From Dehalococcoidia bacterium (GTDB lineage: Bacteria; Chloroflexota; Dehalococcoidia; DSTF01; JACRBR01), in the NCBI GenBank assembly GCA_021731085.1, contig JAKFYB010000009.1, positions 1-34,142 on the forward strand: a stretch of 34,142 nucleotides of DNA, read 5' to 3'. Under the pieces are notes generated by a model that was given only the letters and a program-made list of their open reading frames with translations, was not told the DNA's origin and did no database searches. Each line of letters opens with the position of its first letter. Position 1 is the stretch's first letter. The translations under genes were made by a program, and so were the position numbers. Below are positions 11,863 to 29,693 of the stretch, piece after piece.

Positions 11863-14800
11863 CTAGGGCGTTTCGCTGTCGGACGACGTGATGATCTCCG
11901 TGCCGCGGACTTCTTCCGGGATCACGCGCCAGATCTGATTCGAGGGGTTTTCATACAACAGTTCCATCGCGCCACCGAGGCCGTCCTCGAACTTCTCCAT
12001 GCCCGTGTCGCCGTAGTTGAATCCCTCTTCGTCACCGACGATCACGATGCCGACCTCGTACTTGTCGAGGATCTCTCGCGCCCGGCCGAGGTCTGTCGTC
12101 GTGTAGAACTCGTCGACATCGGCCTGGCGTAGTTGGAGCGCCTGTGCGAACTTCACGCGCTGTTGCGACTGGTGGAAGCCCCAGCCGTGCACCGTCGGCA
12201 GGCCTGTGTTGATCGCGAAGCGGCTGCCGAGGCTGCGATACGAGGGGCCGATGGCCTCGATGATCGTCGGCGTACCGTCGATGTTTTGCCGCGCCCAGTT
12301 GATGGCGTCGAGCGTGTACTTCATCTCGTGCTCGCCGCGAATGCCGGTCGCGTCGTACTCGGTGATGTACATGTTGCCTTCGCCGCCCTCGCGGATGTTC
12401 TCGGAGTTCATCCAGGCGAGGCCGTCGTTGCCGGTGCCGAGGCCGGGGTCGAAGCGCTCGTGGATGCGCGCCCGGGTGCCGAAGTACGGGTAGACGAGCG
12501 TGCCGACCATGAGCAGCACGACGATGGTCACAAATGCGTAGCGCGGGATAAGCACGGCCATGCGGTTGGCCTCGCTTCCGCGATTGAAGAACACCTCCTG
12601 CGGACGCATGACACCGAGGATGTACCAGAGTCCGAAGGCGGAGACGACGCCCCACATCATCCAGACGTGCAGGTAGAACTTGAACACCGTGTTCATGCGG
12701 CCGACATCGCCCTCGAGCGTGACCATCTCGACGCCGCCAACAAGGCCGAAGCCGAGCCCGATCATCGCGTAGACGAAGAGCATGATGGGCGCAGTCGGCG
12801 TGTGGCTCTTGATCTCATGGAGCGCGACTAGAAGTAGGGTTATTAGCCCGACGAAGGCGACGCCCGTGACGCCCCAGCGTGGGACGGTGAACAGCGTGAT
12901 GATCAGCCAGCCGGCCAGGATGAGAGCGAGCATGACAGGCAGCGTGCGGACGGCACTGCGGCGGCGCTGATTGCCAGCTACGAGCCAGCGCACTTCCTGT
13001 GTGCGCGTGATCGCGCGGTTGAGCTGGAACAACAGGAAGCCCGTGATGATGACGAGGAAGACGCCAAAGTGACTGAGGAAGTCCGTCAGGTCTGTCGTCT
13101 GGTCGGCCTGGTTGATACTGCTGTACGACTGGCTGTAGTTCTTCGCGACGACGGAGTACAGCACGAACGACAGGATGCCCATCACGCCGGCTTTGACGAC
13201 GCCCATCGTCAGCGCACGTAGCGTCCAGCGGCCTTCCTTCGCGCGCTCGCCGAGGATCAGGCCGGCTGCGGCGATGAGCATGAACGGCGGGTAGTCCCAC
13301 GAGTTGATCCAGCGAAGCGAACCGACGACCACGCCAAGCACGAGCACGATGCCCCATGACACCCACTCTCGCGAGCGGCGCTTGCTTTCGTCGGTCGCGG
13401 GATTGAGGCGCGTGAAGTTGAAGACGACGCCGAGTGCGACGCCGGTGACCGTCATCGAGAACGGTATCGCCATCAGGTGCGCGTGCAGGTCGGCGAAGAG
13501 GTACGTCCAGAACGGGAACTCCGTGATCGGTGTAACCGTGTTCTCCTGGCCGGGGATGATCGTGAGCGCGCGACTCGGCGCCCACCAGTCGTAGCCGTAC
13601 ACAAGGTCGCGGAACGAAGCGTCGCCGAATGCTGATTCGTAGAGCCCGCCGAAGATGACGACGACGGATCCGATGATGGGGATGTCCGGATTCCATGGGC
13701 TAACGCTCGCGAAGTTGTCTTCCAGCACGCCGATCGCCTTGAGGTTGCCCGCGACCATCACGAAGAAGATGGCAAGCAGGCCAGCGAGGATGGGGCCCGC
13801 GGGACTGATCGGCAAGCCGCCGGGGCGGCGGCGCATGAGCTGTCGTGTGCCCTCGCTCAAGTTGTAGGCGACGGAGAACGTCGCGGCGGCGGAGAGCGCG
13901 AAGAACATCGGCACAACGAGGTTGTAGGCGACTTCCGGCACGATGCCGAGGAGCTTCACGGGTGTGGCGCCGATGAAGAAGCCCCACCAGTAGTAGTTGA
14001 GATATCCGCCCGCATACCACGGATCAACAGGGCCCTGCGTGAGGTCAGTCGTGCGAAGGACGCCGTTGAAGTACGTGAAGTCCATCGGCTTTTCGCCGCC
14101 GGTGAACGGGTGGTAGAGATCGGGGTTCTGGAGGCGGATCCAGTATGAGAACAGGAACGCAGCCAGGAAGATCGCCTCGCAGGCGAGCGCGAAGCGCCAG
14201 TGCTCGCGGAACCATGCGATCAGTTCGTCGCGCCAGCGGAACGCGGCGAGGACGCCGGCCAGCACCATGAGGGCGAGAATGCCGGCAATGCTGCCGCGCG
14301 TAAAGTCGAAGACGCCGAAGCCCGCGGGCGCGTACACGAGGTACGCGAGGCCGATGATGCCGAGCGGCTTGCTCAGCAGGTACCCGCGGTCAGGAAGCCC
14401 GCGGAACAGGATCAGCGTCAACGGCAGCACGGCGAACGCCGCGATCTGCATCGTGAGCACGAAAAAGAGTGCCGGGAAGCGGTTCGTCGGCGAGCCCGCG
14501 TCGAAGATGTCCGACCAGGTGCCGCCCGCCTTCTGTGCCGCGAGGATCTCGGGCTCGTACATGATGCAGTTCTGGCCCGCGTCCTTCGGCTGCGCAGCAC
14601 AGGCGGCGATGAAGGCGTCAGCGTCGAGCGCCTTACGCGTCGCCTCGGCGCTGTAGTCCTCCGTCTTTTCGTAGACGACGACGGTCGGGTGGTCGTACAC
14701 GGAGAACGACTCTTCTGCGCCCGTGTCGTTGAATTCTCTTCCGAAGATGCTGGGGTACGAGTTGAACTCGGCGATCTTCTTGAAGCCTATGGACTCCGGG

Positions 14801-16818
14801 TTCGTCGCGAGTGTGTCGTAGAATCGTGCCGTGACCGGATAGACGGCGGGTACGCGCGAGATCGTGCCGGACAGGCGCGCGCTCGCGGGTGCGAAGTAGT
14901 CCACGGAGTTGATGTCGGCGAGCAGTTGCTCGACCTTCTCCGGCGTGTCGTTGCCGAAGTTCGCAAACTCGACGTGCTCGTACGTGCCGCCGGCGCACCC
15001 AGGCTGGCCGTACGGGACAGTGTCGTCCCAGTGCTCGTGGCCGATGACGCTACCCTGCGGCAGATTCTCGAACATCCAGCACGACGCCTCCGCGCGCGTA
15101 ACGGGCGAGCGGTAGATGTTGTAGAACGCGAGACCGGCGATCACGGTGAACACGACGACAATGACGACGCCCGACTTCACAAGCACGGGGATCGCGGGCT
15201 TGATCGGCGATATGCGCTCACCGAACTTCCCGAGAGCAGCAAGTGGTTCGCCGGATGACGCCCAGCGCCATGCGTGATACAGCAGGAACGCCGCGAACAC
15301 GCAGAGGGCCGGGTACAGCGGCAAGAAGTACCGCATGTAGAGCGAGAACTGCATGCCCATGAAACCGAAGTACCCGACGACCCACGCCAGCGGGATGAGC
15401 CACGCGGCTTGCTTCTGCTTGAAGGCGTAGATTGCTGCGAACACGACGCCGAGCCAGGCCGTGATGCCGAGCGCGGGGCCCATGCCCCAGCTGATCATCT
15501 GCTGTAGCGGCCAGAGCCAGCGCGAACGTCCGATCCACTGGACGTTGGGCGGGAAGGATCCGCCGCTGAGTAGTTCTTCCTGGTTCTGGATGTCGTCGAG
15601 CCAGTGCTGGTTCATGACGTCGGGGTAGACGAACGGCAGCGGGCCGATCGAACCGAACTTCCATGACGTCAGGTCGGCAAGGCTCGGCGTGTTGAATGCA
15701 TACGGCATTGTCAGGCGGTAGGCGATGAAGGCCGCCAGCAAACCGGCAAGCGTGCCGAGCACGAGGACCATCGCCGACCGATCGAGTTTGTGGCCATCGC
15801 GGCGAGCGGCGTACTCAGGCTTGTCGCCTGCCCAGAGCGGCGCGACGAACGGCGCGATGCCACCCCACGCGTAGATGCCGACGGAAAGCACGACAACCGG
15901 TAATAGCGCGAGCGCCGTTGTCTTCGACGCCATCGCGAGTCCGGCCGACGCGCCTCCCAGCATGAAGTTGTGGTAGCCGCCGTGCTTCGCGCCCTTTACG
16001 GCGAAGTACAGCGTCATCGTTGCGAAGAGCGTCACGTGTGGGTCGACGATGAAATAGTGCGAGTTCTGCAGCGCGAATGGCGTGAACGCGTAGAGCGCGG
16101 CAGCGAGCAAGCCGACGTTCCGATTCGCGAGTTGCCGACCGAGTAAGAAGATGAAGACGATGGCGAGCAGGTCGATCATCGCCGAGACCCAACGGCCCGA
16201 GAGGTTGTAGCGGTCGTAGGTCGTGAAGTCGTCCTCCGGCAGCCCGACGCGACCACCGGTAAGCGTTGACAGGGCGGAGTTCACGGGGTCGCCCATGTTG
16301 ATGATTTCGAGGGCGTCGTACGGAAGGGTCGCGTTTGCGGCGACGGCTTTGTTAAGGAACAACGGCAGCGTGCCATAGACGTAGGTCGTCTGGGTGCTGC
16401 CGTCGGGCCGCGTGATGTTGTACGGGTTGAGAGGTGACTCGTCGGTGTCGAAGTACGTCGTTATCTTGTCGAAGATATTGCCCGTCGGCGCCGTCGTGTC
16501 GACGCTGATCTGGGTCAGAAACCGCTCGTCCGGGTGGAGGTGGCCGCTCGTCGTTGGCGGCTGGCCTTCTGCCCCGATCGCGCGGTCCCAGTTGCCGTAG
16601 GTCAGGCGCAGGAAGCCCCCGACGATGATGATGGCCGCCATCACCCCAAACGCCACGAGCAGGGCCCCATCGCGGGTGAGGCCGCTGAGATTGACCTTCG
16701 GGAGGCGCACGGATGGCGCAGAGACGCGCGCCTCTTGCTGCTGACCGTCGTCCGGAGCGTCAAGCGGGGCATCCATGGCGGACGACGGGTCGTGTAGCGG
16801 TGAGGTTTGTTCGCTCAT
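11863..16818 (-). CDS. Giant membrane protein: GT-C glycosyltransferase fused to DUF2298
   Basis: A 1651-residue polytopic membrane protein. After a soluble acidic N-terminus and a first membrane helix near residues 51-70, the loop HLHPDERF at 93-100 carries the acidic pair typical of GT-C enzymes (ArnT/PMT-like), and DPHVT lies near 258. Many hydrophobic helices and an extracytoplasmic segment follow up to about 775. From about 780 the DUF2298 (Chlor_Arch_YYY) family begins: PDLYHPF and EKPMDF near 900, DPWYAGGYLNYYWWG near 936, and EFPFWTYLFADLHAHLMAIPF near 1103, ending in a soluble C-terminal part from about 1500. GT-C enzymes use lipid-linked sugars. DUF2298 function is unknown but is associated with Chloroflexota and archaea. 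No ribosome binding site is obvious. It is likely involved in envelope glycan or glycolipid assembly, by inference. Confidence 0.9.
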   Translation of the reverse strand: MSEQTSPLHDPSSAMDAPLDAPDDGQQQEARVSAPSVRLPKVNLSGLTRDGALLVAFGVMAAIIIVGGFLRLTYGNWDRAIGAEGQPPTTSGHLHPDERFLTQISVDTTAPTGNIFDKITTYFDTDESPLNPYNITRPDGSTQTTYVYGTLPLFLNKAVAANATLPYDALEIINMGDPVNSALSTLTGGRVGLPEDDFTTYDRYNLSGRWVSAMIDLLAIVFIFLLGRQLANRNVGLLAAALYAFTPFALQNSHYFIVDPHVTLFATMTLYFAVKGAKHGGYHNFMLGGASAGLAMASKTTALALLPVVVLSVGIYAWGGIAPFVAPLWAGDKPEYAARRDGHKLDRSAMVLVLGTLAGLLAAFIAYRLTMPYAFNTPSLADLTSWKFGSIGPLPFVYPDVMNQHWLDDIQNQEELLSGGSFPPNVQWIGRSRWLWPLQQMISWGMGPALGITAWLGVVFAAIYAFKQKQAAWLIPLAWVVGYFGFMGMQFSLYMRYFLPLYPALCVFAAFLLYHAWRWASSGEPLAALGKFGERISPIKPAIPVLVKSGVVIVVVFTVIAGLAFYNIYRSPVTRAEASCWMFENLPQGSVIGHEHWDDTVPYGQPGCAGGTYEHVEFANFGNDTPEKVEQLLADINSVDYFAPASARLSGTISRVPAVYPVTARFYDTLATNPESIGFKKIAEFNSYPSIFGREFNDTGAEESFSVYDHPTVVVYEKTEDYSAEATRKALDADAFIAACAAQPKDAGQNCIMYEPEILAAQKAGGTWSDIFDAGSPTNRFPALFFVLTMQIAAFAVLPLTLILFRGLPDRGYLLSKPLGIIGLAYLVYAPAGFGVFDFTRGSIAGILALMVLAGVLAAFRWRDELIAWFREHWRFALACEAIFLAAFLFSYWIRLQNPDLYHPFTGGEKPMDFTYFNGVLRTTDLTQGPVDPWYAGGYLNYYWWGFFIGATPVKLLGIVPEVAYNLVVPMFFALSAAATFSVAYNLSEGTRQLMRRRPGGLPISPAGPILAGLLAIFFVMVAGNLKAIGVLEDNFASVSPWNPDIPIIGSVVVIFGGLYESAFGDASFRDLVYGYDWWAPSRALTIIPGQENTVTPITEFPFWTYLFADLHAHLMAIPFSMTVTGVALGVVFNFTRLNPATDESKRRSREWVSWGIVLVLGVVVGSLRWINSWDYPPFMLIAAAGLILGERAKEGRWTLRALTMGVVKAGVMGILSFVLYSVVAKNYSQSYSSINQADQTTDLTDFLSHFGVFLVIITGFLLFQLNRAITRTQEVRWLVAGNQRRRSAVRTLPVMLALILAGWLIITLFTVPRWGVTGVAFVGLITLLLVALHEIKSHTPTAPIMLFVYAMIGLGFGLVGGVEMVTLEGDVGRMNTVFKFYLHVWMMWGVVSAFGLWYILGVMRPQEVFFNRGSEANRMAVLIPRYAFVTIVVLLMVGTLVYPYFGTRARIHERFDPGLGTGNDGLAWMNSENIREGGEGNMYITEYDATGIRGEHEMKYTLDAINWARQNIDGTPTIIEAIGPSYRSLGSRFAINTGLPTVHGWGFHQSQQRVKFAQALQLRQADVDEFYTTTDLGRAREILDKYEVGIVIVGDEEGFNYGDTGMEKFEDGLGGAMELLYENPSNQIWRVIPEEVRGTEIITSSDSETP

Positions 16819-17175: not shown

Positions 17176-18837
17176 ATGAATAACAGGCTTCAACTGGGCC
17201 TCATCGGGGCTGCCGCAGCGCTCATTCTGGTCATTGCGGGCGTCCTCCTCTTCTCGGTAGGCGGTGGCGGCGACAAGGACGATTCCGCGTCCGGCGACGA
17301 GACGCCGTCCGCTTCCGAAACCGAAAGCGCCGACATCGAGAGCGGCGGCGAGGGCGAACTCGTCATTCGTGGCGAGGATCCGCTGTTCCTCGACCCAGCC
17401 GTCGTACAGGACTCCGGCTCCGCGTCGTACCTGGTCGAGATCTTCTCCGGGCTCGTGCGGCTCGACAAGGATCTGGCCATCCAGCCGGACCTAGCCGAGA
17501 GCTACGAAGTCAGCGCCGACGGCACGGTGTTCACGTTCAAACTGCGCCGGAACGCAACCTTCCACGACGGGCGGCCCGTGCTGCCGGAAGACGTGAAGTA
17601 CTCGATCGAGCGCGCGCTCGCGCCTGAGACAGCGTCCGTAGTGGCGGAGAACTTCCTAGGCGACATCGTCGGCGCGAAGGACATGGCGCGCGGCCGTGCG
17701 GACTCCGTCAGTGGCGTGAAGATCGTCGACGACAGCACGATCGAAATTACGATCGATGCTCCGAAGCCATACTTCCTCTATAAGATGACGTACCCGACCG
17801 CCTACGTGGTCGACCAGCGCCAGATTGAAGGCAATCCGCGCCGCTGGACGCAGCAGCCGAACGGCACCGGCCCCTACAAGCTGGCGGAGTGGCGTCTTGG
17901 CGAGCAGATCATCCTCGAGGCGTACGAGAACTTCTACCTCGGCCCCCCGACGCTTAAGACCGTGCGCTTCGAGCTTTCCGGTGGATCGGGGCTCGTCGCG
18001 TACGAGGACGGCGACATCGACATCACCGGCGTCGGGCTCGATGACCTCGAGCGCATTCAGGATCCGGCCGACGTACTGAACCCTGAGTACTCGCAGGTCA
18101 CACGGCAGTCGCTCGACTACATCGGCTTTAACACCAACGTGCCGCCCTTCGACGACCCGCTTGTGCGGCAGGCGTTCGCCCTTTCCGTCGACCGCGCGAA
18201 GATCGCGGAAGTGATCCTGAAAGACGCGATTCCGGTCGCCAACGGCATCCTTATGCCGGGCGTCCCGGGCTACACCGAAGTGCAGAAGACGTACCCGTAC
18301 GATCCGGAAGAAGCGAAGCGCCTGCTCGAACAGTCGAAGTACGCCGACGACATGCCGGAGATCACGCTCGCCGAGAGTGGCGCCGGCGGTACCGTGGGCC
18401 CGACCACTGAGGCCATCGTCCAGTACTGGTCGGACAACCTCGGGATCGACGTGAAGATCCAGCAGGCGGAGTCCGGCACGTTCTTCAGCGACATCGACCA
18501 GGGCCGGTACCAGATGTTCCACCTCGGTTGGATCATGGACTACCCGGATCCGGAGGACATTCTCGACATCCTATTCCACTCGACAAGCCGCCAGAACAAC
18601 ACGCGTTACTCGAACCCCGAGATCGACGCGCTGCTCGAGTCGGCGCGCGTGAACCAGGACGCCGAGGCGCGCCTCCAGACGTACCAGGAGGTAGAGGACA
18701 AGCTGGTAAAAGACGCCGTCTGGATCCCGATGTTCTACGACGTCGCGCACGTGCTCGTGAAGCCGTACGTGACGAACTTCGAGCTGCCGGCGATGATCAT
18801 CGAGCGCTACCGCGAGGTCGAAGTAGACCGACCGTAG
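17176..18837 (+). CDS. Oligopeptide/dipeptide ABC transporter substrate-binding protein (SBP family 5)
   Basis: A 553-residue extracytoplasmic binding protein. One hydrophobic N-terminal segment (residues 8-29) is followed by an acidic Gly/Ser/Glu linker to about residue 60. There is no lipobox cysteine, so it is anchored by an uncleaved helix or is secreted. The mature part shows family-5 landmarks: LAESYEVSADGTVFTFKLRRNATFHDGRP, NGTGPYKLAEW, and ALSVDRAKIAEVIL. AAGGA lies eight bases before the ATG. Two permease genes follow after 162 bases, but no ATPase gene. The ligand is likely a peptide or similar small molecule. Confidence 0.94.
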   Translation: MNNRLQLGLIGAAAALILVIAGVLLFSVGGGGDKDDSASGDETPSASETESADIESGGEGELVIRGEDPLFLDPAVVQDSGSASYLVEIFSGLVRLDKDLAIQPDLAESYEVSADGTVFTFKLRRNATFHDGRPVLPEDVKYSIERALAPETASVVAENFLGDIVGAKDMARGRADSVSGVKIVDDSTIEITIDAPKPYFLYKMTYPTAYVVDQRQIEGNPRRWTQQPNGTGPYKLAEWRLGEQIILEAYENFYLGPPTLKTVRFELSGGSGLVAYEDGDIDITGVGLDDLERIQDPADVLNPEYSQVTRQSLDYIGFNTNVPPFDDPLVRQAFALSVDRAKIAEVILKDAIPVANGILMPGVPGYTEVQKTYPYDPEEAKRLLEQSKYADDMPEITLAESGAGGTVGPTTEAIVQYWSDNLGIDVKIQQAESGTFFSDIDQGRYQMFHLGWIMDYPDPEDILDILFHSTSRQNNTRYSNPEIDALLESARVNQDAEARLQTYQEVEDKLVKDAVWIPMFYDVAHVLVKPYVTNFELPAMIIERYREVEVDRP

Positions 18838-26462: not shown

Positions 26463-29400
26463 ATGGAGGGCAGCGGCAGGCCGCGCAACATCGAGGGCGT
26501 TGCGACGTCGAAGTTCGCTGTGCCCCGGCGGCGGCCCGATGTCGTGCGTCGGCCGCGGCTGAACGCCCTGCTCGATATGGCCGTCGGCGTAGAGGGCACG
26601 CTCATCGCAGCACCCGCCGGCTACGGCAAGACCACCCTCTGCGTCGACTGGCTCGAAACGACGGACTTCGCGCCCGTCTGGGTGGCCCTCGACTCCTGGG
26701 ACGCCGAACTCCCCGCCTTCGCGCGTGCCGTCGCTTCCGCGTTGCGCCTGCGGTTCGATACGGACGTCGAACTCGGCGACGAGCGGTTCTGGCAGCCGCG
26801 CACCGTCTCCGCCGTCATCGTAAATACGATCGCGCAGCAGGACGACTACGTCGTGCTCGTGCTCGACGACGTGCACCTGCTCGAGTCCGACGCCGCGATC
26901 ATGGAGACGCTCGGCTACGTCCTTGAGCGCGCGCCCGAGAACCTGCACGTTGTGATGACCTCGCGGACGCGACCCCCAGTGCCATCGCTCGCGCGCCTCA
27001 TCGCCCGCCGCGAAGTGACGACGCTGGGTGCGGCAGACATCGCGTTCACGCCACGCGAAGTACGAGAGCTGCTCGGCACGCTCGGGCGCGCCGTCTCTGA
27101 GGACGAAGCGGAGACGTTGTTCGAACGCACCGAAGGCTGGGCCGCAGCTATCATCCTCGGCGCTGGGGCGACGGACTCGATGCCACGGCGTGCGGAAGTA
27201 GACGGCGAGGGTGCCGCAGGCGGCGTAGGCAGCATCGCCGGGCCCAACGTCGGGCTATCGCTGGCCGACTACGCGACGGGTGAGGCGCTCGTCACGGTGC
27301 CCGAAGATTTGCGCGTATTCTTGCGGCAGATCTCGCTGCTGCCGGTGTGGACGCCCGCGCTCTGCAACGACGTGACGAACCGCCGTGACAGCGAAAAGCT
27401 GCTGCGCGAAGCGGCGGCGCAGGTGCTGTTCGTGACGCAGCATGCCGACGATCCGCCGATGTACCGCTGCCACCCGTTGCTGCGCGCGCTGCTCATGCAG
27501 CAGTTCCGCTCTGACGAGCCCGCTGCGTTCGCAACGGCAGGGCGCGAATCCGCCGACAAGCTGTCGCGCTTCGGGATGTTGAACGAAGCCGTCGAGCTGC
27601 TGTTCGAGCTCGAGGAATGGACACAGGCCGCCGTCGTGCTCGACGAGATCGCACCGCGGCTGATCCAGCAGGGACAGGCGCGCGCCCTCGCCGAATGGAT
27701 CGACCGCCTGCCACACGACGCAGCCGCCGGCCGGCCGACGCTGCTCGTCTGGCGTGCGCGGGCGTCGATGAAGCTCGAAGAGTTCGACGAAGCGCTACGG
27801 CTCGTCGAAGAGTCGCTGCGCATCCTGCGCAACATCGAGGACGTGCCCGGCATCGTCGAGGCGCTGTTCGTGCGCGGCGAGACGCAGCGGTTCAAGGGCT
27901 ATCACGACGAGGCACTGGCGACGTTCAACGAAGCGCGCGGGCTTGTCGAGAATGAGACCGCATCCGACGACGCGATGCTGGCGGACGCGCTGCGCAACAT
28001 CGGCGTGACCCACGCGCTCGCCGGCGGTTTCGACGCGGCGATCGTCGAGCTGGAGGAAGCGCGGCGGCTGTTCGAGCAGGTGGGCGACCTACGCGGCATA
28101 GGCAACACGTGCGGGACGCTGGCGCAGTGCTACAGCGCGCGCGGCGAGTCGATGCAGGCCCTGGGTGCTTTGCAACGAGCACAGTCGGCTTTCGAACGTG
28201 CGGGCAACACCTTCGACCTGGGACTGACGCTGAACAATACCGGCATGGTGTATTACGAGATCGGCGAATTCGACCAGGCGTTGCAGGTCTACGAACGCGG
28301 CCTGCGTCTCGTACGCGGCGCAGGCAATACGTTCGCCGAAGCGGCCATTCTCGCCGGCATGGCGGAGACGTATCGCTCGACCGGGCGCTTCGAAGAGAGC
28401 CTCGCAGCGTATGAGGAAGTGCGCCCGCTCGTCGAAGGCCTGCAGATCCCATATCTCACTACTGAGGTCTCTGAGGGTCTGGCGCTGACGCAGCTAGGGC
28501 TCGGGCAGGGCGGCGAAGCGCTGCGGCTACTCAAGCAGACCGCGCCAAAGCCCGGCGAGCCCGCATCACGCGTGGCACAGCACCAACTCGCCGAATCGCA
28601 ACTCGCTCTCGCCCGCGGCGATACGTCCGGCGCGATCAAGTCACTCGACGCGGCATGGAAGCACTACGAGACCGCGGACAACAAGCACCAGATGGCGATC
28701 ACCGCCGTCCTCCGTGCTCGAGCGCTGTTCGCCGCGCACCAGCCACGACGATCGATGGCGGAGGTCGAACGTGCGTCGCAGATCAGCGATGAGCTCGGGT
28801 ACCGCGCCTTCTTGCGGCCGTTCATCACCGGCGCGCAGGAGATGGTCGAGTACGCGCTCGTCCGCCACATCGCGGAGGCGTTCATCACATCGATCACCGA
28901 CGAGCAAGCGCGGCCGAAGGCCACATCGCGCAAGACAGAGCCCAACGCCGGCCTCGTGCCCAACGTGCGCGCGTTCGCGTTCGGGCGCGGCAGCGTGCTC
29001 GTCGGCGAGCGACAGGTATCGGACCTCGAATGGCGCAGCGAGAAGAGCAAGGAGATGTTCTTCTACCTTCTTCATCGCGGCGAGTCCGTCCGCAAGGAGG
29101 AGATCTTCGGCGCACTCTGGCCGGATCTTCCGGAGTCGAAATGCAACAGCAACTTTCATTCGAGCCTGTACCGCCTCCGGCGCGCGCTGTTCCATGAGTG
29201 CGTCGTTCGCGACGCGAACGGCGGATACGCGCTCAATGACAAGGGTGTGTTCACGTCCGACATCGACGCCTTCAACCGAGCCATGCTTGAAGCCGATGTC
29301 GCGAAGGACGATGACGCGCGCGCTGCGAAGCTCGAAGAAGCGGTCGCCTTGTACAAGGGCGGGTTTCTCTCGTCGACGTACAGCGAGTGGACGGAGCAGA

Positions 29401-29693
29401 TCCGGCGCGAGTTGGAAGACCGCTACATAGAGGGACTCAACGAGCTGGGGTCACGCCGCCAGCGTGAGGGGCGGTTCGAGGAGGCGCTGCAGCTGTTCAA
29501 GGCGTTGGAGACGGTGGACACGTACAGCGAGGCGGCGGCCCACGGCATCATGCGCGCGCACATGGGACAGAACGACGGCGGGTCGGCCGTGCGCCACTAC
29601 CGGCGCTTCAAGCAGCTGCTACTGGACGATCTGGAGGAAGAGCCGTCGGATCGGCTGACGGCCCTCTATCGAGAGGCATCGGGAAGTGCATAG
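26463..29693 (+). CDS. STAND ATPase, TPR and BTAD-type transcriptional regulator
   Basis: A 1076-residue MalT-like signalling protein. The ATPase module has Walker A APAGYGKTT at 50-58, Walker B VLVLDDVHLL at 131-140, a TSRTRPP sensor near 166 and the MalT-family TEGWAAAI at 223-230. Residues from about 400 to 800 are tetratricopeptide repeats (for example GNTFDLGLTLNNTGMVYYEIGEF). The C-terminus, from about 840, is a winged helix of the OmpR type (LEWRSEKSKEMFFYLLHRG, then SSLYRLRRAL) followed by a bacterial activation domain to the end. A LuxR-type helix-turn-helix, usual in MalT, is absent. Ligand-driven oligomerisation and DNA binding are family knowledge; the inducer and targets are unknown. 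No Shine-Dalgarno sequence is seen. Confidence 0.93.
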   Translation: MEGSGRPRNIEGVATSKFAVPRRRPDVVRRPRLNALLDMAVGVEGTLIAAPAGYGKTTLCVDWLETTDFAPVWVALDSWDAELPAFARAVASALRLRFDTDVELGDERFWQPRTVSAVIVNTIAQQDDYVVLVLDDVHLLESDAAIMETLGYVLERAPENLHVVMTSRTRPPVPSLARLIARREVTTLGAADIAFTPREVRELLGTLGRAVSEDEAETLFERTEGWAAAIILGAGATDSMPRRAEVDGEGAAGGVGSIAGPNVGLSLADYATGEALVTVPEDLRVFLRQISLLPVWTPALCNDVTNRRDSEKLLREAAAQVLFVTQHADDPPMYRCHPLLRALLMQQFRSDEPAAFATAGRESADKLSRFGMLNEAVELLFELEEWTQAAVVLDEIAPRLIQQGQARALAEWIDRLPHDAAAGRPTLLVWRARASMKLEEFDEALRLVEESLRILRNIEDVPGIVEALFVRGETQRFKGYHDEALATFNEARGLVENETASDDAMLADALRNIGVTHALAGGFDAAIVELEEARRLFEQVGDLRGIGNTCGTLAQCYSARGESMQALGALQRAQSAFERAGNTFDLGLTLNNTGMVYYEIGEFDQALQVYERGLRLVRGAGNTFAEAAILAGMAETYRSTGRFEESLAAYEEVRPLVEGLQIPYLTTEVSEGLALTQLGLGQGGEALRLLKQTAPKPGEPASRVAQHQLAESQLALARGDTSGAIKSLDAAWKHYETADNKHQMAITAVLRARALFAAHQPRRSMAEVERASQISDELGYRAFLRPFITGAQEMVEYALVRHIAEAFITSITDEQARPKATSRKTEPNAGLVPNVRAFAFGRGSVLVGERQVSDLEWRSEKSKEMFFYLLHRGESVRKEEIFGALWPDLPESKCNSNFHSSLYRLRRALFHECVVRDANGGYALNDKGVFTSDIDAFNRAMLEADVAKDDDARAAKLEEAVALYKGGFLSSTYSEWTEQIRRELEDRYIEGLNELGSRRQREGRFEEALQLFKALETVDTYSEAAAHGIMRAHMGQNDGGSAVRHYRRFKQLLLDDLEEEPSDRLTALYREASGSA

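Follow-up and report, generated by a model that had tools for sequence, protein, structure and literature searches.

The window, that is, the whole 34,142-nucleotide stretch of Dehalococcoidia DNA analyzed here, carries on its minus strand a complete fusion gene (11863–16818; all features of this gene given below are on that strand). It reads as one unbroken frame of 1651 aa (residues 1–1651) from the ATG at 16818 to the stop at 11863–11865, and stops are present in the matching stretch of the plus strand read in frame. The original prediction of a single 1651-residue frame, which had left the strand unstated, was confirmed. The gene product is one membrane protein that joins a GT-C glycosyltransferase to a DUF2298/TIGR03662 domain. 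A cytochrome P450 gene (10554–11804) occupies the convergent flank and a peptide-transporter gene set starts at 17176 on the divergent flank; genes for SRP54, RimM, trigger factor, ClpP and ClpX lie farther away. None of the genes adjoining the fused gene in the source genome, on the flanks within the window, is a glycan gene. The window also encodes, at 26463–29693, a protein of 1076 aa that has TPR repeats and, near its C-terminus, a BTAD (bacterial transcriptional activator) domain.

Seven further records contain the fusion in an open frame (L042–L046, L048 and, in part, L047), and long open frames bearing the N-terminal half were seen again throughout Chloroflexota. Because other records carry the fusion in an open frame, it reflects neither chance nor an assembly error; the latter, or a frame error, found no supporting evidence and is ruled out for practical purposes by the fusion's presence in these records and in most genomes of the phylum. 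The partial copy in L047 sits on a contig labeled Myxococcales and is Chloroflexota-like, pointing to contamination or transfer.

The N-terminal half and its relation to GT-C enzymes

The N-terminal module (residues 1–780, 14479–16818) is supported by an AlphaFold2 model and its fold matches in VIA. In Pfam, residues 206–310 (15889–16203) match PMT_2 (PF13231) with an E-value of 1e-13 and 52.2 bits against a cut-off of 26.1, and the half also passes the cut-off for PMT (PF02366; E 3.2e-9). As originally predicted, it contains a GT-C loop of the HPDERF type (residues 95–100), whose HPDER motif (residues 95–99, 16522–16536) is assigned to the first external loop. P96, D97 and E98 are invariant in all 30 aligned N-terminal halves, a count made without L047, L065 and duplicates, as are R71, W77, R209, D216, Q251, H254 and R496. 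An essential acidic motif just after TM1 is described as a hallmark of GT-C enzymes in PMC6801728, and D97–E98 corresponds to the DxD/DD/DE-type motif soon after TM1 by which that text defines them.

The AlphaFold2 model of residues 1–780, built from 8 sequences, reached a pLDDT of 67.9 and a pTM of 0.72. VIA aligned it with yeast Stt3 (8age; Z 27.0, 477 residues, rmsd 6.8), followed by AglB (Z 25.8), Pmt2 (6p25; Z 24.0) and ArnT (5f15; Z 21.9). The best structural matches, Stt3 and AglB, cover residues 46–720 and include the first soluble domain (residues about 570–780, 14479–15111), where E595, W597 and D598 are conserved. We assign the first half to the GT-C enzymes with good confidence and predict that it transfers a glycosyl group from a polyprenyl-linked donor. 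It resembles PMT_2/PMT enzymes in the family cut-offs passed, in the predicted GT-C fold and in the acids of the first loop; unlike them, the window protein has another full membrane module in the same polypeptide. With 19 PMT_2 matches, the source genome is rich in GT-C-like proteins for its size of 3.6 Mb.

The coverage of Stt3 and AglB over residues 46–720, soluble domain included, would also be expected if the N-terminal half were an oligosaccharyltransferase moving a finished glycan, with DUF2298 finishing or presenting that glycan. A conserved E-x-W-D-D follows the first strand of the N-terminal soluble domain, presumably at roughly the position of the WWDYG motif in AglB. Against this reading, which we regard as improbable, PF02516 (STT3) has no match in the 1651-aa protein at E ≤ 1 in Pfam, the N-terminal half scores 19.7 against the NCBIfam cut-off of 450 for TIGR04154 (STT3), and Pmt and ArnT follow closely behind Stt3 in the fold scores. 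The window protein thus differs from Stt3/AglB in having no sequence-family membership, although it shares their predicted fold in the N-terminal half and, on a poor model, in the C-terminal half and its soluble domain. The single, borderline match of the STT3 profile in the source genome is in another frame (948 aa).

The preferred assignment, a GT-C enzyme of the PMT/STT3-like kind, was compared with Agl23 of Haloarcula hispanica, represented by TIGR03663. The N-terminal half is weakly similar to this family and is not a member of it (19.1 bits against the NCBIfam cut-off of 126.25). Profile comparison with Agl23-like families gave Prob 99.0 and 97.5, whereas a flippase-like family used as a control gave Prob 0.4 with the N-terminal half and 0.2 with DUF2298.

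The DUF2298 half

The second half (residues 781–1651) bears the DUF2298 landmarks that had been predicted for it. Residues 825–1389 (12652–14346) match PF10060 in Pfam (E 5.9e-96, 322.8 bits against a cut-off of 27.8), and residues 784–1631 match nearly the full domain of TIGR03662 (Chlor_Arch_YYY) in NCBIfam, above the curated cut-off (452.8 bits against 300.25). This family here forms the second half of a fusion; the curators' note on TIGR03662 reportedly already describes members extended at the N-terminus and members in which the domain is doubled. The family presumably owes its name to a YYYxG motif, which in the window protein is the Y-to-W variant YYWWG (residues 942–946) and in most homologs is YYYFG or YYYYG.

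Conservation was assessed on 61 DUF2298 domains, a set that omits the same-record duplicates L076, L080, L082 and L087 and the partial or edge copies L043, L047, L049, L050 and L051. E909, which follows the first core helix, is present in 60 of the 61. In a 59-row count that omits L077 (cut by a contig end, E909 present) and L069 1274-3466 (without E909 in the alignment), R895, E909, N966, N1025, R1083, E1100, H1112, H1114, R1374, N1376 and R1564 are invariant in all 32 fused-type and all 27 standalone domains. Three stretches stand out: EKPMD (residues 909–913, 14080–14094), the probable acidic first external loop of DUF2298; the conserved stretch from E1100 to H1114 (EFPFWTYLFADLHAH; 13477–13521); and RMNTVFK (residues 1374–1380, 12679–12699), an Arg/Lys motif before the last helices, in which R1374 is kept in 59 of 59 rows and K1380 in 58, the placement of R1374 within the fold being uncertain. 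The acids of DUF2298 are spaced as ExxxD/E, compared with the usual DxD or DD of GT-C enzymes.

Sequence searches revealed no relationship to GT-C enzymes of solved structure. The whole protein had no match in the PDB at E ≤ 1, and the DUF2298 profile found no GT-C chain among PDB sequences up to E 10, a method that misses remote kin; its 24 PDB matches, mostly to triosephosphate isomerase, were discarded as chance-level. Profile comparison revealed no similarity between DUF2298 and two Agl23-like GT-C families (local Prob 0.5 and 0.9) and a weak one to the N-terminal half (local Prob 72.6) across the last helices and the soluble domain.

The model of residues 781–1651, built from 12 sequences, was poor (pLDDT 51.9, pTM 0.47). 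Helix prediction places the end of the final helix around residue 1438–1450 and leaves a soluble tail beyond it, in agreement with the soluble C-terminus originally described, and within this tail a domain (residues about 1496–1633, 11920–12333) resembles the C-terminal globular domain of AglB in VIA. That globular domain (3vu0_A; Z 12.3, 119 residues, 2.6 Å) is the first-ranked VIA match of the half, and ranks 2–19 among the best 50 matches listed are all full-length GT-C enzymes, namely Stt3, AglB, DPY19 and AftA, with Z between 9.7 and 11.8, although values of 9–12 on a helical model can reflect a common arrangement. In Foldseek the first two ranks went to DPY19 (E 0.0036 and 0.0041), and the third to the globular domain of AglB (prob 1.00, E 0.12). 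Since the matches to full-length enzymes mostly start at model residues 82–98, the helix at residues 876–894 (14137–14193) would be TM1 of a second GT-C core and E909 would lie in its first external loop; three helices (residues about 781–862, 14233–14478), within the TIGR03662 domain, precede this probable core. A GT-C fold for the DUF2298 half is likely, and no more than likely because model confidence is low. Structure prediction of both halves, suggested as a check on the original prediction, yielded a GT-C fold for the N-terminal half and a low-confidence model for DUF2298.

Many hydrophobic helices, the lack of a close sequence relative in the PDB and the poor model would also suit an unrelated transporter fused by chance. 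Transporter was dropped as the leading reading of DUF2298, and we consider it very improbable, because GT-C enzymes rather than transporter folds lead the structure search; moreover, the C-terminal domain is AglB-like and DUF2298 co-occurs with glycan genes (see below). An unrelated transporter fold devoid of an acidic loop, named at the outset as the outcome that would overturn the proposal, is not what we obtained, given the retention of E909 and the GT-C enzymes at the top of the structure search.

Distribution of the fusion across Chloroflexota

DUF2298 is present in 204 of 301 Chloroflexota genomes and in all 18 genomes of the source genome's order. Taking as strong a best E-value of ≤ 1e-30, read by hand from the match listings, strong DUF2298 occurs in 196 of the 301 and the N-terminal half, at E ≤ 1e-40, in 190. 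The two occur together in 188, the N-terminal half alone in 2 and strong DUF2298 alone in 8; P values for such co-occurrence overstate independence because the genomes are related. Among the 150 N-terminal-half frames listed from the 190 matching genomes, 130 are at least 1300 aa long, 21 of these at least 2100 aa; five measure 900–1299 aa and 15 fall under 900 aa, and these five and several of the short ones may have been cut by contig ends. One member of 2498 aa (L052:7097–14593) combines the N-terminal module with two DUF2298 domains and TPR repeats. The fusion is therefore the norm in Chloroflexota and no local oddity, and the original view of two families occurring separately in many genomes is misleading where this phylum is concerned.

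A tree of the 61 domains, obtained by a short search with no bootstrap, places fused-type and standalone DUF2298 on opposite sides apart from two domains, one of which is truncated at a contig end. This separation points to an old fusion that has been passed on mostly by inheritance. A split form occurs in family f37, represented by six short-frame loci (L094–L099). In five of them (L094, L095, L096, L097 and L099), an N-terminal half of about 600–620 aa adjoins a DUF2298 gene, which in the four placed on the tree (all but L095) is of the standalone type; L098 contains genes for the N-terminal half and an Agl23-like protein only. This lineage has kept the N-terminal half and no longer has the fused copy of DUF2298, which shows that the two halves can be separated. 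The claim that the two families act together gains from their shared phylogenetic profile, a check that had been proposed and that bore out joint occurrence; however, because the N-terminal half survives in this lineage without fused DUF2298, acting together may mean membership of one pathway rather than an obligate pair.

Beyond the phylum, DUF2298 matched two archaeal control genomes, Haloferax volcanii and Methanosarcina acetivorans. The archaeal plasmid comparison comprised two records, one of them a Halarchaeum remnant with no annotated gene at the match. On a Clostridia plasmid from a rumen Pseudobutyrivibrio (L092:7608–9863), a DUF2298 gene lies inside a polysaccharide locus, surrounded by glycosyltransferase, O-antigen-ligase and sugar-epimerase genes.

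Partner genes and a proposed role for DUF2298

Genes related to Agl23 neighbor DUF2298 across Chloroflexota. In 14 of 18 fused loci, drawn from 20 regions hand-picked from the phylum matches rather than at random, a standalone DUF2298 is part of the stretch retrieved, and Agl23-like and flippase-like genes often come next. Near several of these loci there are also a flippase-like protein and two additional GT-C proteins of the PMT_2-like kind; one of the latter, where scanned, bears an NHL β-propeller. The source genome's order is arranged differently: none of the 10 fused loci examined there has a standalone DUF2298 alongside, and all nine standalone-type loci examined, including that of the source genome (L011), continue with a protein like the propeller-bearing GT-C, the propeller itself being confirmed by Pfam in L011 and L054 only. 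In L011, the standalone DUF2298 is directly followed by a TIGR03663 protein (195.8 bits against the cut-off of 126.25) and then by a TIGR00374 flippase-like protein; in another genome, the shorter GT-C reaches 110 for TIGR03663, just under the cut-off. Phylum-wide, strong Agl23 was found in 190 of the 301 genomes, together with strong DUF2298 in 187; DUF2298 stands alone in 9 and Agl23 in 3. The full gene order at L011:2965–15221 is smc, ftsY, DUF2298, Agl23-like with NHL propeller, flippase-like. For the fused gene, ffh is found at a distance of a few kilobases, and this association of glycan and signal-recognition genes may be due to chance.

We found no paper in the open literature searched that gives DUF2298 a function, and the model names likewise yielded none. 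Two papers in that literature name DUF2298, one of them as an entry in a gene table, and the accessible portions of PMC9943897, PMC10384203 and PMC7801869 contain nothing bearing on it; Agl23 is absent from the main text of PMC8993221.

GT-C enzymes with an odd number of helices end outside the membrane, where their soluble domain lies. We consider it probable that the fused protein is a two-module, outward-facing GT-C enzyme of a lipid-linked envelope-glycan pathway, its substrates and the catalysis by DUF2298 being the parts we infer. A PMT/STT3-like enzyme (residues 1–780) and the DUF2298 module (residues 781–1651) would act in series, both of GT-C type. The three extra helices before the second core would return the chain to the cytoplasmic side, which would put the two acidic first loops and the two soluble domains on the outer face. 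For each module, the donor of the sugar would be a polyprenyl-phosphate-sugar or a lipid-linked oligosaccharide, and the acceptor an envelope glycan, glycolipid or glycoprotein under assembly. The putative partners, encoded elsewhere in the source genome, would be the standalone DUF2298, Agl23-like GT-C proteins and the flippase-like protein. For the DUF2298 half itself, transfer, flipping or presentation of the sugar may each apply.

PMC11182771 reports that purified Haloarcula Agl23 translocates lipid-linked oligosaccharide in liposomes. As Agl23 itself has reported flippase activity, its company is no proof of transferase activity. That activity, together with the Agl23-like and TIGR00374 flippase-like neighbors of DUF2298 and its unusual acid spacing, would fit an arrangement in which only the N-terminal half transfers sugar and DUF2298 is a lipid-linked-sugar flippase or a scaffold that hands over the donor. 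We judge this unlikely: E909 and the further polar residues do not vary among the fused and standalone domains counted, a pattern that looks like a conserved active site, and a scaffold need not keep them.

The two-module enzyme could tentatively be extended further, into a reading that is possible but falls short of an even chance, in which DUF2298 would be a new catalytic GT-C family and the fused protein a two-site, outward-facing assembly line building an undescribed lipid-linked envelope glycan. The fused GT-C–DUF2298 protein, standalone DUF2298, Agl23-like GT-C proteins with or without the β-propeller and the flippase-like protein would then make up a phylum-wide pathway, perhaps the bacterial counterpart of haloarchaeal Agl23 glycosylation. 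The original hint at envelope glycan or glycolipid synthesis draws partial support from the Agl23-like and flippase-like neighbors and from the polysaccharide locus.

DUF2298 reaches across most of the sampled Chloroflexota, two archaeal control genomes and a Clostridia plasmid. Together, the fusion, the joint presence of Agl23-like proteins across the phylum and the conservation within the loops give this uncharacterized family a testable predicted role, the outward-facing transfer of sugar from a lipid carrier. The cell envelope of Chloroflexota is poorly understood, and such a role, if true, would point to an uncharacterized glycan pathway in a major phylum.
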